IMG/VR virus record: IMGVR_UViG_3300031521_000103
Location: 1-48,114 of that record
Strand: one strand, 5' to 3'
Source of the DNA: a virus
DNA length: 48,114 nucleotides
Within the stretch, counting starts at the first letter, position 1. Each line of letters opens with the position of its first letter. Of the stretch, positions 30,664 through 46,909 are shown one piece after another. Below the pieces are notes generated by a model. It was not told the DNA's origin and ran no database searches. It saw only the letters and a list, made by a program, of their open reading frames with translations. Position numbers and translations under genes: made by a program.

Positions 30664-32757
30664 CTAGCCGGTCGCCGATGTGGCCGTGCGCTGAATCGCG
30701 CGGACGGCGATGACGAAGCCCGTTGTCCGGGCGATGGTCCCGGTGCCGCCGGGGAAGTACGCACAGTGGCCGGAGAACGCTGTCGTGCTGGTCGCCACAC
30801 CAGCGGCGATGGCAAACTCCGTGAGGGACGCCACGGACACGACGACGTGGGGGGTGACGGTGAAGCGGCCGGCCGGGAAGGTCCCGGAGAAGATGCCGTT
30901 GGCATCGCAGGTCGCGGTACCGACCCACTCCGCGAAGGGCGCCTTCGTCAGCGCCGCGTCCAGGCCGGTCACGTCGGCGGTCGCGTGGACGTGCGCCGCC
31001 CCCTGGACCTCGACCCCGGTGTACGCCGCCTTGATGAGCCAGGTGAGCGTGAGGTAGGGCTGGAGGTTGTTGTGCGACGCGGTGGCGGGCTGGGAGATGT
31101 CGGCGGAGCCGTAGCCGTTCGAGCCGGTGGTCCCCGCCAGGTCCTTGACGCCGCCCGTGCGGAAGTTGGCGTCGAGCGACGCCGCGCCACGCACCACCCC
31201 GTCGTCGGTGTTCGCGTTCCCGACCGTCATGCCAGCTCGCAGGACGTGTCGGTGGTCGCGGAGACCAGACTCGGCCGCGGTCAGGAGGTGGGCCTTCTCG
31301 CCGCCCGTCTCGCCCAGCGCGTTGAACTCGGTCTGCGCCGTGTCCTGGCCGACCGGGACGCGCCCCTTGAGGTTCGGCAGGTTGAAGGTCGTGGTGCCGT
31401 TGCCGGCGCCGAACGTCGTGCCGACGACCGCGAACAGGGCCGCGTACGTCGTGCGCGAGACCGCCGAGCCGTCCGCCACCAGGCATCCGGTCTGGATCGT
31501 CGTGGACGGCCAGGCGAACACCTCGCCGATCTGGCGGCCGATGGTGGTGCCGTAGTTGTTGGTCACGTTCGTGACCGTGGTGCCGCCCTCGGCGGTGCGC
31601 TCCAGGGAGCTGACCCGGTTCTCGATGCGGCTCTCGAAGTCGCGCACCTGATCGACGGTGCCCACGCTGTCGCTCAGGGCGATGGCGAGGCGCACGCCCT
31701 CGCTGTCCACCTTGATGATGGCCGACTGCACGAGCGCCGTGATCTCCACGCCCTCCACGACCGCGGTTACCCGGTCGCCCAGGAACCAGTCGTAGATGTA
31801 GCGCATGGTGCTGTCGTCCATCGGCGTGAACTTGACGAGGGCCTGCTTGATGCCGTCCTTCGCCAGGGCCTCGTCGCCGGCCTGCTCCAGCTCGGGCGTG
31901 GTGTCCGCGGAGCGGCGGTCCAGGAAGCGCTCGATGCGCCGGCCCCACTCGTCCATCTGCGACAGCGACTCGGGGGTGGTGCGCTCGACGAAGTTGCGGT
32001 CGACGCCCTCCTCGCTGCCGCCGACGATGGCGTGCGTCAGGGCGGCGCCGGCCGTCTCCACGGAGTAGGCCGCGAGGGTGTTGTTCCACAGGTCCATGCG
32101 GATCAGGCGCGAGCGATCGGCGACCTCGAAGGTCTCGAACACCAGGCTGGAGCCGCGCTGGATCACGCGGAAGCCGATGTCGCTGACGGCCGCGATCTCG
32201 TTGAGCAGGGTGCCGAGCACGTCGAAGCGCGCGCTCTTGGAGATCGACGCACCGCGGCCCAGGTTCGTGCCCATGACGAGCTTCTTCGCGAACTTGCCGC
32301 GCCGCGCCGCGGGGGCGCCGGGACCGATGTTCGCGTTGACGTAGGCGTGGAGCAGGGTCTCGATCGGACCCGTGCGCGAGTCGCGCGCGGAGCCGGACTG
32401 CCCCGCCATCGTGGCCGACGTCGGGAACGGGTAGGCCAGCGCGTCGGCGAGGATCACGTCGTCGGTGACGCCCGTGATGGTGACCATGCCCTCGGGCGCC
32501 TCGGACGAGCCGACCGAGCTCGTCTTGGAGGTGGGCCCGCTGAGGATGACGGTGCCGGTGCGGTTCGTGACGATCAGGCCCGAGCCCGGGGTGCGCAGGT
32601 ACGGCACCATCGGGTGCTCCAGTGGCAGCGTCACCGACCACTGGCCCACGTTGCAGAACTCGTCCTGGAGCGTGAAGGTCGCGTCGGTCGGCAGGATGAC
32701 GCCCACGCGGGCGAGGGTGACGTCACGGACCTCGACGTTGATGTCGACGAGCTCCAC
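30664..32757 (-). CDS. Tail protein: Gp37-like domain fused to a tail collar domain (697 aa)
   Basis: The first about 380 residues match the ReqiPepy6 Gp37-like siphovirus tail family (VTLPLEHPMVPYLRTPGSGLIV, then FLGDRVTAVVEGVEITALVQSAIIKVD). At about 420-475 a collar domain begins (CLVADGSAVSRTTYAALFAVVGTTFGAG and FNLPNLKGRVPVGQD) and closes with ATASHNNLQPYLTLTWLIKA at about 590. The C-terminus is a beta-rich tip. It would form the tail hub or fibre base. GTG 32757 directly follows the stop of the gene at 32758. Confidence 0.85.
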   Translation of the reverse strand: MELVDINVEVRDVTLARVGVILPTDATFTLQDEFCNVGQWSVTLPLEHPMVPYLRTPGSGLIVTNRTGTVILSGPTSKTSSVGSSEAPEGMVTITGVTDDVILADALAYPFPTSATMAGQSGSARDSRTGPIETLLHAYVNANIGPGAPAARRGKFAKKLVMGTNLGRGASISKSARFDVLGTLLNEIAAVSDIGFRVIQRGSSLVFETFEVADRSRLIRMDLWNNTLAAYSVETAGAALTHAIVGGSEEGVDRNFVERTTPESLSQMDEWGRRIERFLDRRSADTTPELEQAGDEALAKDGIKQALVKFTPMDDSTMRYIYDWFLGDRVTAVVEGVEITALVQSAIIKVDSEGVRLAIALSDSVGTVDQVRDFESRIENRVSSLERTAEGGTTVTNVTNNYGTTIGRQIGEVFAWPSTTIQTGCLVADGSAVSRTTYAALFAVVGTTFGAGNGTTTFNLPNLKGRVPVGQDTAQTEFNALGETGGEKAHLLTAAESGLRDHRHVLRAGMTVGNANTDDGVVRGAASLDANFRTGGVKDLAGTTGSNGYGSADISQPATASHNNLQPYLTLTWLIKAAYTGVEVQGAAHVHATADVTGLDAALTKAPFAEWVGTATCDANGIFSGTFPAGRFTVTPHVVVSVASLTEFAIAAGVATSTTAFSGHCAYFPGGTGTIARTTGFVIAVRAIQRTATSATG

Positions 32758-33153
32758 TCACATCACCCACCTTCGCGGTCGCCAGCGCACGGTGACGCGC
32801 GAGGCCGACGTGCTGTCGCTGACCTCGACGGCTGCCGAGGTGATGCCCGGGGGGATGGTCCACATCCGGGGCGCGGGGGAGAGCTCCGCGTAGCGGTTGG
32901 CCCCCGTGTTGTCGACGACCGTGCCCTTCTCGGTGTCGATCGTGAGCGTCTGGCCGGCGGCCAGGGCCCCGGTCCACTCCAGGACGGCGCCGTCTGGCGA
33001 GACCGCACGGAAGCGGCTCGCCGGGGCGCGCACCTCCCACACCGGGAAGGCGTGGGCGTCGCCGTCGTTCTCCAGGACGACGTCGCCCGTGATCTGCGAG
33101 GGGGACACCTTGAGCTGGGACAGGTCGGGCAGGAGCCCGCGGTTCGATGCCAT
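32758..33153 (-). CDS. Distal tail protein, C-terminal part (131 aa)
   Basis: GLLPDLSQLKVSPSQITGDVVLENDGDAHAFPVWEVRAPASRF ... TVVDNTGANRYAEL ... MWTIPPGITSAAVEV matches the C-terminal domain of siphovirus distal tail (Dit-like) proteins. It lies in the same frame as the upstream gene, separated only by TAG-CCG-ATG. A GGGGGG tract 7 bases before the ATG could allow separate initiation. It is either a split gene or one protein with an in-frame amber codon. Confidence 0.75.
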   Translation of the reverse strand: MASNRGLLPDLSQLKVSPSQITGDVVLENDGDAHAFPVWEVRAPASRFRAVSPDGAVLEWTGALAAGQTLTIDTEKGTVVDNTGANRYAELSPAPRMWTIPPGITSAAVEVSDSTSASRVTVRWRPRRWVM

Positions 33154-33156
33154 CGG

Positions 33157-33618
33157 CTAGCCCCCCAGGGTCACGGTGCGGACGATCTCGCCTTGCCAGA
33201 ACGGGTTGGGGGCGCGGAGCGTGACGACGGTTCGGAGCTCTCGCTCCCCGTCGGTGTCCGAGCCCCAGGCGAAGTCGCCACCGCCGACGCGGTAGGTGTC
33301 GATGGACCACGACGTGCCGTCGTCCTCAATGAGGCGCAGGCGGCACTTGCCGTCGAGCATCCGGGCGAGCCTGGACCAGAGCGCCGTGAGGTCGCTGCGG
33401 TCCAGGCCCACCACCAGGAGCGGGAGGTCGATGTCGCGGGGCAGGACGCGGCGCCCTCGGTAGAGGGCGCCATCCCCGGCCCCCTCCAGCCAGCGGATGC
33501 TGACCGGGGGGAGGCCGAAGCCCGTGGCGCCGGAGAGCGCCTGAATGCCGCGCCCGTACTTGAACACGTAGTCCAGGTCGAGCGCGTCCGTGTCGTTCTC
33601 CAGCGCGAGAGAGGGCAT
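33157..33618 (-). CDS. Distal tail protein, N-terminal part (153 aa)
   Basis: LENDTDALDLDYVFKYGRGIQALSGATGFGLPPVSIRWLEGAGDGALYRGRRVLPRDIDLPLLVVGLDRSDLTALWSRLARML ... NPFWQGE is the N-terminal domain of Dit-type tail proteins. The gene ends at TAG 33159-33157, six bases before the in-frame ATG of the C-terminal part. The ATG at 33618 overlaps the TAA of the tape measure gene. Confidence 0.75.
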   Translation of the reverse strand: MPSLALENDTDALDLDYVFKYGRGIQALSGATGFGLPPVSIRWLEGAGDGALYRGRRVLPRDIDLPLLVVGLDRSDLTALWSRLARMLDGKCRLRLIEDDGTSWSIDTYRVGGGDFAWGSDTDGERELRTVVTLRAPNPFWQGEIVRTVTLGG

Positions 33619-36600
33619 TAGAAGCCCACCGCCCTTCCTCGGGAAAGTGCAGCGAACAGGTCCTCCTCGGAGCCGAGAGAGGAGCCTTCCGCAGCGTTGT
33701 AGTTGATGACCTGCTGCTTGAGAACGGGGCCCATGAACTCGGCCTCGTCGAGGGCGGCGTGGGTGTCCGCGGCCATCTTCTTCGCCGCATTGACGGCGTT
33801 CTGCGCGCGGGCCTCGATGCCGTCCGCCATTGCGTCGCCGATGGACATGCCGGAGTAGAGGACCCACCCCTTGCCGGAGAAGGGCCCTTCCTTGGCCGGG
33901 CTGAACGGGAACAGGTCGCGGATGTCGGAGAGCACGTTGGAGACCGACTTCTTGGCCTCGTCGGCGCGATCGCTAATGCCCGCGGTGAACCCGTCGATCA
34001 GGGATCGACCGGAGGCGATCAGCCACGTCCCGATGTTCGAGACGGCCTTCTCGATGTCCTTACGCAGGCCCTCGATCTTGGTCTGGACGCCGGAGACCGC
34101 GGTCTCAACGTCGGCCTTCATCTGCTTGAACCAGGCGATCACCGCGACGACCTGGTCACTCACGGCCCCGATGAACGCGGCGATGGCCTGGAGCTTGGGG
34201 TTGACCTGCTCGACGATCACTCGAACCAGCTCGATCATCGGCGTGACGATGTACTCGAACAGCTCGATGAGGAGCGGCATCGCCTCGACGATGATGGGCG
34301 TCAGCTCGACGAGCAGGTCGGTCGCGGTGCCGGCCAGCTCGACGAACACGTCGGCGTTCTCAGCGACCTTCCCGATGATCTCGCCGAGGGCTTCGATCAG
34401 GTCGGGACTGGTGGCCTTGAAGATTTGCGCGAAACAGTCGGCGATGACCGGCAGGAGCGGGCCAAGGTCGTCGGCCAGCGCAGACCAGAGGTCGACGATC
34501 TGCGGCAGGAGCTCGATGATGGCGTCGGCGAGCATCTTCACCATCGGGACCAGGAGCGGGCCGATGGCGTCGATGACCGGGGTCAGGGCCAGGGCCAGGT
34601 CGGCGATCGCCTGACCAACGACCGGGAGAATCTCCGCGACGGGGCCCGCGAGCGCCAGCGCCAGGTTGACGAAGGCGTCCACGAGGCCCGGCAGGGAGGG
34701 CGCGATGGCCTTGATCGCGTCAGCGAGACCCGTCGAGAGGAGCTCGATGACGGGGGTCAGGCCGTCCACGAGGATGACGAACGCCGGGGCGACCGCCTCC
34801 ACGAACGACGTGATGAGCGGCGCGAACGCCGCCGCCAGGTCGCCGATCAGCGTCAGGACGGCGCCCATGATCTCGCCGAGCGGCTTCCACATCGGGGTCA
34901 GCGCGTCGATCGCCACGAGCAGGTTGTCGAACAGGCTGACGATGCTGTCCTGCATGGCCGGCGCCGCGAGGGCGTTGGCGATGTCTCGCAGGAGGGTTCC
35001 GATCGCGGGGCCGGCGCTCTCCATGACCTTGTCGAACGTGTCGGCCAGGGTGGCGAACAGGTTCGAGAAGGCGGGGCCCGAGATGTTGCCGATCGCGTAC
35101 ATCGCGTCGTGGGCGGCGGTGAGCGCCGTGACCATGCCCGTCTGGAATGCGGGGGAGTCGACCGCGGCGTGGACCCGCTCCAGCGTGTCGGCCATCATGC
35201 CGAGCGTGGAGCCGCCGGCCTCCTTCGCTGCGCGGCCGAGGCCGGACAGGGTGCCGTACAGCTCACTGAATACGTGCCCCAGCTCGACCAGCGCGGCGAT
35301 GCCGTTGTTGATCCACGTCTGGAGCTCACCGGACTGCTCCGTGCGGTCGAGGAACGCCGCGAACCTGTCGGTGATCTGGACGAACCAGCCCGCCAGGCGG
35401 GGCAGGAGCGAGGCGCCCTGCCGGCCGAGAATCTCGATGATCGTGACCATGCCGGTCATGCCGCCGCTGGCGATGTTGATGCTCTCGCCGAGGTCGGCGA
35501 ACATTCCGGCGAGCGCGCCATTGAGGCCACCGCCCAGCGCATCCGCCAGGGCGCCGAACCAGCCACCGAGCTGCTTCGAGGTGTGGATCAGCCCCGCGGA
35601 CAGCTCGGGCAGGAGGGAGTCGATCAGGTCCCGGAACGGCTTCTTCGCCTCGGACCAGAAGGTCGAGGACATGGCGTCCTGGAGGTGCCCGAGCGCCTTC
35701 TTGACCTCGGGCAGCACGACGTTGAAGTCCTTGAGGACGGCGATCGAGGCGCCAAGGCCAATCGCCATTCCGCCGAGAATGCCAGGGAGGCCGAGAAGCG
35801 CCGGGCCGATCTGCGCCAGGGACGACGACAGGGCGAACAGGTTGCTCGCCGCGCTCAGGCCCCAGCCGGCCACGCCGGCAATGCCGAGCGCGAGGGCCGA
35901 CAGCTTGGGGATGGCCTTGTCGATGTTCGACAGCCAGTCGGTGAAGTTGGTCGTGACGTCCCACAGCATTCGGCCGCCGGAAAGGGCGGCGATTGCGGTG
36001 CCGGCCTTGGCGAGCGACTTCTGGTTGACCCGCACAACGAGGTCGACGTAGCGGCGGCGGTTGATGATCGCCAGCTCCGCGGACGCCTTGCCGTGGTCGA
36101 GTGCGACCTGGAGCTCGACCTTCTTGCCGTCGTAGTCGTCGACGAGGTCCTTGAGCTGCTCGCGCGTGTGGTGAAGCGACTCGGCGCCGTTGTTGACGTC
36201 GATCTCGACGGTGCGCTGGCGCGCGAGCTCGGCGTCGATCTTCTTGAGCGCCGTGCGGTAGGTCTCGATGTCGTGGGGGTCGATCTCGATGCGGATGTCG
36301 ACGCTGGACGCCTGGAGCGCCGCCTCCAGGCGCGCCTTCTCCACCTTGAGGCTGGCCTCGTCGAGGTGGACCTCGACCTTGTAGGTCTCGCCCAGCTTCT
36401 CCAGCTCGGCGTCGATCCTCGCCAGGCCCCGCTTGATGGAGTCGGTGTCGTCGAGGTTGACCGCGATGTTGATGGCCTTGGCGGAGCGCTGCGCAACCTC
36501 GACGGCGCGCTCGACCTCCTGCTGGAGGCCCTCGTTGAGGCGCAGGTCGACGCCGATGGCCTTGAGGTTGCGCTCGATGCGGTTCAGATCGGCGCGCAGA

Positions 36601-36677
36601 TCGTCGCCGAAGTCAGTGGTGTCGGGAAGAACCTTGACGGCCACGCGGCCGATGACGACGGACTTCCCGACACCCAT
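33618..36677 (-). CDS. Tape measure protein (1019 aa)
   Basis: The longest gene; its length sets the tail length. The N-terminal 250 residues are coiled coil (DFGDDLRADLNRIERNLKAIGVDLRLNEGLQQEVERAVEVAQ). Hydrophobic segments follow at about 265-320 (LSALALGIAGVAGWGLSAASNLFAL, LLGLPGILGGMAIGLGASIAVLKDF) and then a long repeat-like region of amphipathic helices (VDGLTPVIELLSTGLADAIKAIAPSLPGLV). The C-terminal GFTAGISDRADEAKKSVSNVLSDIRDLFPFSPAKEGPFSGKGW is typical of actinophage tape measure proteins. ATG 36677. Confidence 0.93.
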   Translation of the reverse strand: MGVGKSVVIGRVAVKVLPDTTDFGDDLRADLNRIERNLKAIGVDLRLNEGLQQEVERAVEVAQRSAKAINIAVNLDDTDSIKRGLARIDAELEKLGETYKVEVHLDEASLKVEKARLEAALQASSVDIRIEIDPHDIETYRTALKKIDAELARQRTVEIDVNNGAESLHHTREQLKDLVDDYDGKKVELQVALDHGKASAELAIINRRRYVDLVVRVNQKSLAKAGTAIAALSGGRMLWDVTTNFTDWLSNIDKAIPKLSALALGIAGVAGWGLSAASNLFALSSSLAQIGPALLGLPGILGGMAIGLGASIAVLKDFNVVLPEVKKALGHLQDAMSSTFWSEAKKPFRDLIDSLLPELSAGLIHTSKQLGGWFGALADALGGGLNGALAGMFADLGESINIASGGMTGMVTIIEILGRQGASLLPRLAGWFVQITDRFAAFLDRTEQSGELQTWINNGIAALVELGHVFSELYGTLSGLGRAAKEAGGSTLGMMADTLERVHAAVDSPAFQTGMVTALTAAHDAMYAIGNISGPAFSNLFATLADTFDKVMESAGPAIGTLLRDIANALAAPAMQDSIVSLFDNLLVAIDALTPMWKPLGEIMGAVLTLIGDLAAAFAPLITSFVEAVAPAFVILVDGLTPVIELLSTGLADAIKAIAPSLPGLVDAFVNLALALAGPVAEILPVVGQAIADLALALTPVIDAIGPLLVPMVKMLADAIIELLPQIVDLWSALADDLGPLLPVIADCFAQIFKATSPDLIEALGEIIGKVAENADVFVELAGTATDLLVELTPIIVEAMPLLIELFEYIVTPMIELVRVIVEQVNPKLQAIAAFIGAVSDQVVAVIAWFKQMKADVETAVSGVQTKIEGLRKDIEKAVSNIGTWLIASGRSLIDGFTAGISDRADEAKKSVSNVLSDIRDLFPFSPAKEGPFSGKGWVLYSGMSIGDAMADGIEARAQNAVNAAKKMAADTHAALDEAEFMGPVLKQQVINYNAAEGSSLGSEEDLFAALSRGRAVGF

Positions 36678-36680
36678 GTG

Positions 36681-37396
36681 CTACCTCCGTTGCATTCGCG
36701 CGAACAGACCGGCGACGGTCTCGTGCGCGCCCTTCTTCTCTGTCTTGGGTCGCGGGAACGGCGTGAACTTGGGGGCCTTGCCCTTTGCCCATGAGCCGGT
36801 GCCGCGCGTGTTGTTGTTGATCGCGTCGTAGACGCTCGCGATCAGGTGACGGTCCATGCCCCAGCCGAGGTGCTCCGCACCCCCAGCCGCGATGGCGCTG
36901 GTCATTCCGTCGTCGGGGAGCCTCTCGATGAGCAGGACGAGCAGGCGCGGGGCCGGTCCGCGACCAGCGATCGCGTCCACTAGGTCGATGCCGTAGTGGA
37001 AGCGGAGGTCGGCGTACAGCCCCGCGCCGTACTTGTCGATCAGCTCACAGAGGCCGAGGCTTCCCCCACCTGGACCGCCCGCGAGTAGTTCTCGAACGTG
37101 GTGACCAGGAGGGCGAGGCTGCCGTCCAGGGCGGCGACGAGCTTGGCGCCGGCCTCCGGGTTCTCGGCGACGATCGTGAGGATGCTTTCGAGGACCTGCT
37201 CCTGGTCGACGGTCTCGTTCTCGTCGTCGCTGTTGAGGCGCCCCTGCTCCGCGATCAGCGCCTCCCGCCGCGCCTTGGTCATCTGGAGGGGGTTGAGGAG
37301 CTTCACCACCACGCCGTCGTCGAGGGTGACGGGGAAGTTGCCGTACTTCGCCTCTGCGGCGGCGCGGATGTCGTCGAGCGTGAAGGACTTGGTCAT
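36681..37396 (-). CDS. Tail assembly chaperone, long form by -1 frameshift (gpGT-like)
   Basis: Translation starts at 37396, shifts -1 at G-GGG-GAA (37067-37061) and ends at TAG 36683-36681, giving 238 residues. After the shift the frame reads LGLCELIDKYGAGLYADLRFHYGIDLVDAIAGRGPAPRLLVLLIERLPDD and continues through LGWGMDRHLIASVYDAINNN. This is the T-domain pattern of siphovirus chaperones, and no good start codon precedes it, as expected for a frameshift product. It coats and folds the tape measure protein during tail assembly. Confidence 0.8.
37040..37396 (-). CDS. Tail assembly chaperone, short form (gpG-like, 118 aa)
   Basis: ATG 37396 between the major tail and tape measure genes. Sequence FTLDDIRAAAEAKYGNFPVTLDDGVVVKLLNPLQMTKARREALIAEQ and the acidic middle are typical. 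It ends at TGA 37042-37040 after the slippery site. The short to long ratio is set by the frameshift efficiency. Confidence 0.85.
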   Translation of the reverse strand: MTKSFTLDDIRAAAEAKYGNFPVTLDDGVVVKLLNPLQMTKARREALIAEQGRLNSDDENETVDQEQVLESILTIVAENPEAGAKLVAALDGSLALLVTTFENYSRAVQVGEASASVS

Positions 37397-46835: not shown

Positions 46836-46909
46836 TGGCAGACCTGACAGGAATCGAACCCGTTGCCGCCCGGGTTGGAGCCGGGGGCGCGCGCCATGCG
46901 CTCAAGCCT
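46836..46909 (-). tRNA. tRNA-Trp (CCA)-like gene
   Basis: 74 bases on the minus strand. The acceptor AGGCTTG pairs with CAGGTCT (two G-U pairs), the anticodon arm is CCCGG-CTCCAAC-CCGGG with anticodon CCA, the variable region has 5 bases, the T arm is ACGGG-TTCGATT-CCTGT, and G plus CCA is encoded. The D arm is short (GCGC stem, 5-base loop) and base 8 is A instead of T, so folding may be poor. The rest of 46636-47196 holds no gene I can support, only hairpins. Confidence 0.65.

Follow-up and report, generated by a model that had tools for sequence, protein, structure and literature searches.

In most siphophages, the ring formed by the distal tail protein (Dit) is the fixed joint of the tail tube and the hub. 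PMC7291167 describes the structurally characterized Dits as having two domains, and the passages on Dits in that paper also apply the name to the ring-only protein of phage lambda and describe evolved Dits, in which extra modules are inserted in the galectin domain. The Ceduovirus phages c2 and bIL67 are predicted to form a hetero-hexameric Dit-like ring, in which two Hcp-like proteins alternate (PMC12474359). In the relevant parts of PMC13252515 and PMC6316719, Dit is treated as one gene product; nothing on a split Dit was found in the corresponding parts of PMC3118219, PMC7296036 and PMC12494034, and a term search of PMC5009743 gave no match. Two-domain, ring-only and evolved Dits are already in print, as is, for ceduoviruses, a different kind of Dit-like ring made from two genes, and no description of a split Dit was found in the portions of the open-licence literature covered here.

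The window analysed here (the stretch of 48,114 bases that makes up IMG/VR virus record IMGVR_UViG_3300031521_000103, from an actinobacterial phage) encodes on its minus strand the gene series tape measure protein (TMP), dit-N, dit-C and hub, with the dit pair in the position between the tape measure and hub/Tal genes that is typical of Dit. The TMP gene (33618-36677, minus strand; 1019 aa; phrog_305 tape measure, 5.6e-124) ends in a TAA that overlaps the ATG of dit-N. The 153-aa open reading frame of dit-N (33157-33618, minus strand) starts with ATG at 33618 and runs for 153 codons to a TAG at 33159-33157; this is followed by CCG and by the ATG of dit-C at 33153, from which 131 codons lead to a stop ending at 32758 (dit-C, 32758-33153, minus strand). 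The GTG start of the Tal-type baseplate hub gene (30664-32757, minus strand; 697 aa, with a Gp37-like domain and a tail-collar domain) comes immediately after the dit-C stop. The junction (33151-33171, minus strand) consists of a G-rich, Shine-Dalgarno-like tract within the last dit-N codons, CTGGGGGGCTAGCCGATG, then TAG, CCG and the dit-C ATG, and no promoter or terminator was found between the two genes. The initial annotation had reported an in-frame TAG-CCG-ATG between the N and C halves of a Dit; the sequence reads exactly so, and both halves are Dit-like.

In a profile search, dit-N matched phrog_33 'distal tail protein Dit' (1e-12), with a weak match to PF05709 Sipho_tail (E 8e-4) below the family cut-off, and dit-C matched PF22768 SPP1_Dit above the cut-off (5.5e-7), as expected of the galectin-like, peripheral C domain of a Dit. 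The joined frame, read through the stop, matched phrog_33 over residues 33-284 (9e-28). Past the stop, the frame remains open for all 131 codons, and joining the two yields a complete Dit; both facts would fit leaky termination, of the kind known from some phage coat proteins, in which the TAG is sometimes read and a minor full-length Dit is made beside the short form. However, a shared frame is expected by chance for one in three pairs of closely adjacent genes, and when the bases of the C gene were shuffled, 207 of 2000 sequences were free of stops as well, so the open frame alone is weak evidence. What goes beyond chance is the homology of both halves to Dit together with the recurrence of the stop in relatives.

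The read-through frame was modelled with AlphaFold2, with the TAG entered as Q and 40 sequences in the alignment. The model (mean pLDDT 82.0) has two confident parts and is weak at residues 151-170 (pLDDT 59 and 49) and at residues 30-55. The stop corresponds to residue 154 and the second start to residue 156 of the joined frame, both inside the weak 151-170 linker. Comparison with solved structures (Foldseek, VIA-align 2) matched the model with the baseplate protein of mycobacteriophage Douge (8zdo chain m; Z 17.2, 235 residues, 3.3 A) and with SPP1 gp19.1 Dit (2x8k; Z 14.9, 211 residues, 3.5 A); model residues 1-284 align with SPP1 Dit, including its tail-tube-like ring domain at the N terminus, and residues 145-282 also resemble fungal galectins (Z of about 7, a middling level by the scale of the tool). 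Both domains are thus represented in whole-length matches to 2x8k and 8zdo, but these two proteins are single-chain and very low in sequence identity to the joined frame (13-14%); a search of the solved structures by sequence alone gave no match, and fold comparison alone succeeded. Because the joined model matches Dits over the whole length and the stop falls in the linker, the cut parts the ring domain from the galectin-like domain within a low-confidence stretch of the model. Usually, both domains of a Dit lie on one chain; here a stop stands between them in the window and in two diverged relatives (see below), and the pair is therefore classed as a split Dit rather than an ordinary one.

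By sequence, the likeness is to the one-chain Dit of Camvirus and other Streptomyces phages (for example, the 'Dit-like tail protein' of phiScoe44), in which both domains are homologous to those of the window and the position between tape measure and hub is the same. The Streptomyces-phage proteins are at most 57.5% identical to the window over all 153 residues of the N half and at most 56% identical in the C half. There the Dit is a single chain of 285 aa; in the window it is divided between two genes, with the cut in the linker that joins the domains.

The initial annotation had raised the possibility of a base error at the stop. The TAG-CCG-ATG is kept in three more IMG/VR contigs from this phage (98.9%, 99.9% and 100% DNA identity), which are identical to the window in dit-N and in the covered part of dit-C (132, 132 and 62 codons); this excludes an error private to one assembly. 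A sense codon at 33157-33159 in relatives, which the initial annotation had named as a refuting finding, was looked for, and none of the close copies has one. More distant phages have one uninterrupted chain at the stop site, and 118 of 121 distinct related loci are one-chain, as would be expected if the TAG were a miscalled or misassembled base, or a nonsense mutation newly arisen in an ordinary one-chain dit gene. Against this reading, the same TAG is present in the three other contigs, two diverged species have a stop at the homologous place accompanied by a new start, and the junctions differ among the loci, which excludes an error common to all of them. We consider the chance of an error or a recent nonsense mutation negligible; the one-chain state in the distant phages instead marks the split as derived.

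The two diverged relatives are a 21.7-kb IMG/VR contig (L005), with an N part 71% identical to that of the window, and a prophage in Cellulomonas sp. SG140 (L160), with an N part 72% identical. Collinearity between the SG140 prophage and the window extends for about 46 kb (G001:C11, about 8000-54300), with a circular shift such that the segment matching window 17-48 kb comes first, followed by that matching window 0.4-15 kb, with the ends of the window joined; given this collinearity, the prophage is a real relative, and the host of the window phage probably belongs in or near Cellulomonadaceae. In the contig, the N gene comprises 153 codons before its TGA, and the ATG of the C gene follows 1 nt later, in the +1 frame; in the prophage, the TGA comes after 152 codons and the C gene starts with TTG 1 nt later, again in the +1 frame. 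Although the frame differs, the start codon (ATG, ATG and TTG, respectively, from the window to the prophage) occupies the same position in the three loci and is followed there by GCA, and the C chain begins with M-A-S-N-R in the window and M-A-T-N-R in both relatives, with GLLP following directly or one residue later. Since the second gene of both relatives is in the +1 frame, the in-frame arrangement in the window is, as far as these sequences tell, a coincidence.

The same frame difference bears on translational readthrough, which had been proposed for the window. The frame-0 continuation past the stop encodes no Dit C domain in either relative, and frame-0 readthrough cannot join the halves there because the second gene is in the +1 frame; the extension is in frame in the window and shifted by +1 in both relatives, contrary to what a conserved readthrough protein would show. 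The RNA structure around the stop is not beyond that of shuffles (z -0.05), and the M-A-x-N-R start with its Shine-Dalgarno tract indicates separate initiation. Readthrough is thus impossible in two relatives, and as the explanation of the window locus we regard it as improbable, even though low-level readthrough without function could still take place. A second recoding scheme would be a programmed +1 frameshift at GGC-UGA-C in the relatives, which read TGA-C-ATG and TGA-C-TTG, promoted, as in release factor 2, by the Shine-Dalgarno-like tract upstream, with the window as a degenerate descendant. In both the contig and the prophage, a purine tract indeed precedes GGC TGA C, broadly like the prfB site, but GGC before the stop is a poor slip codon, the start codon and GCA stay at the same place in all three loci despite the frame change, and the window needs no frameshift. 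We therefore judge frameshifting to be even less probable than readthrough.

Separate initiation of dit-C is consistent with the upstream sequence. Scored as pairing of the upstream 20 bases with the anti-Shine-Dalgarno sequence, the G-rich tract, which had been suggested to allow re-initiation, behaves as a Shine-Dalgarno site: dit-C scores -9.3 kcal/mol, compared with -8.9 for dit-N, -8.8 for the hub gene and -10.8 for the TMP gene, and, of the 85 start codons inside these four genes, one reaches the score of dit-C. In the 21.7-kb contig, dit-C scores -10.2 and the hub gene -2.9, and in the SG140 prophage the TTG start of dit-C has a weak site (-4.9); because of these last two values, the measure is not decisive for every gene. 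The two window genes have nearly the same third-position GC (0.94 in dit-N and 0.95 in dit-C). Between the window and the contig, dN is 0.27 and dS 0.81 in dit-N, and dN is 0.33 and dS 0.58 in dit-C, where the alignment crosses an insert. Between the window and the prophage, changes at the first, second and third codon positions number 27, 19 and 69 in the first 140 codons of dit-N and 23, 19 and 32 in the first 103 codons of dit-C. These counts indicate clear purifying selection on dit-N; given the weak third-position excess relative to the prophage, selection on dit-C seems looser or is less well shown.

Taken as a whole, the stop in the three same-phage contigs, the split in two relatives with the second gene in another frame and the score of the tract favour the first of the possibilities that had been listed for this locus, a true split into two chains. 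Very probably, the Dit of the window phage is encoded by two consecutive genes, dit-N for the ring domain and dit-C for the galectin-like domain, which arose by one fission and are translated in a coupled manner, and the two products would be separate chains in the virion. Under this two-gene scenario, one fission event would have produced a ring-only Dit and a separate galectin-domain chain; the second start was probably ancestrally 1 nt after a TGA, as in the contig and the prophage (the ancestral frame being reconstructed from three members), and a small length change in the window lineage would by chance have aligned the frames of the two genes. Ribosomes ending dit-N would re-initiate on dit-C via the Shine-Dalgarno tract in the last dit-N codons, which may yield similar amounts of both chains. 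The dit-N chain would form a hexameric ring linking the tail tube to the hub, and the dit-C chain would dock non-covalently at the rim of the ring, where other phages have the tethered galectin domain.

Among 390 loci collected, 384 matched both halves, and these comprise 121 loci distinct by the DNA of the N part; the split is present in 3 of the 121 and absent from the remaining 118, which are uninterrupted, although 3 of 121 is no frequency in nature, given that the loci were drawn from searches biased to near relatives. Of the other six, three have the N part alone (L054, L145 and L237, all of one contig ending there), one has the C part alone (L318), and two have neither half; L086 was matched in the C part only, and its frame continues upstream according to the list of open reading frames. 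The carriers of the split are only three species, one of them known from the single 21.7-kb contig. When 44 N domains were placed in a tree (41 hand-picked representatives besides the three split cases), the split cases formed one clade (support 96/86) with one change on the tree, in 96% of 200 bootstrap trees, so that a single fission is the simplest history. The clade adjoins a one-chain Dit of 722 aa (L229; 100/97), which is on a long branch.

Further searches yielded no additional split. Among 81 genomes of the genus of the SG140 prophage host, there were two matches, in the SG140 genome itself and in L257, which is one-chain by translation; among 396 genomes of the order, only the SG140 genome matched; and among 394 genomes of the class, the matches were the SG140 genome and L258, which encodes a 443-aa Dit in one chain. 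Plasmids gave five matches, all of them single aligned pieces and none split; four lie under one annotated feature, and the fifth has no feature. In cultured phages, 397 records matched the read-through protein, and among the 60 listed each was one aligned piece, three of them covering the C part only, with no split. The one-chain Dits L257 and L258 have extra C-domain residues, and L257 belongs to the same genus as the SG140 host, whose prophage has the split Dit. Long C-domain inserts, some with repeated similar segments, are also found in five one-chain Dits of 691-912 aa (L020, L024, L042, L074 and L229), all from actinobacterial-type viral contigs.

Set against the described systems, dit-N would resemble lambda gpM, a minimal Dit, in being a hub ring protein with the ring domain only (PMC7291167, PMC12474359), but no separate galectin chain is mentioned for lambda in the passages of these papers on gpM, and the likeness is one of description only. 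As in ceduoviruses c2 and bIL67 (PMC12474359), the hub would be built from two different gene products; unlike those, the two window products correspond to separate domains of what was ancestrally one Dit. The dit-C of the 21.7-kb contig (L005:5464-6507; 347 aa) recalls evolved Dits in having about 210 extra residues in the C domain, but the evolved Dits are not said to be split in the passages of PMC7291167 that describe them. This insert has no Pfam match above the cut-off, its structure model is poor (pLDDT 43.6), and the window dit-C is without it. A tentative extension of the two-gene scenario, which we consider possible but rather unlikely, is that the freed galectin-like chain became an independent accessory baseplate protein, docking in variable number on a lambda-like ring-only hub and evolving separately as an adhesion module, with the extra residues in the contig as an example; if so, the fission would illustrate how a fixed hub domain can turn, in nature, into an exchangeable host-binding subunit.

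We rate the split Dit as real, conserved in a small clade and modest in consequence. A natural two-gene Dit suggests that the linker is dispensable for assembly, and it offers a clean system for asking whether the galectin domain is structural or decoration. Annotators should also take it as a warning: an in-frame stop may be where one gene truly ends and the next begins.

On the plus strand of the window, very long open frames lie opposite the tape measure gene (33759-36794, 1011 aa) and opposite the dit-hub genes (30766-33621, 951 aa); they are probably a side effect of the high third-position GC, and they yield misleading antisense matches in protein searches. A tRNA-Trp gene (anticodon CCA; 46836-46909, minus strand) is located near the right end of the record.
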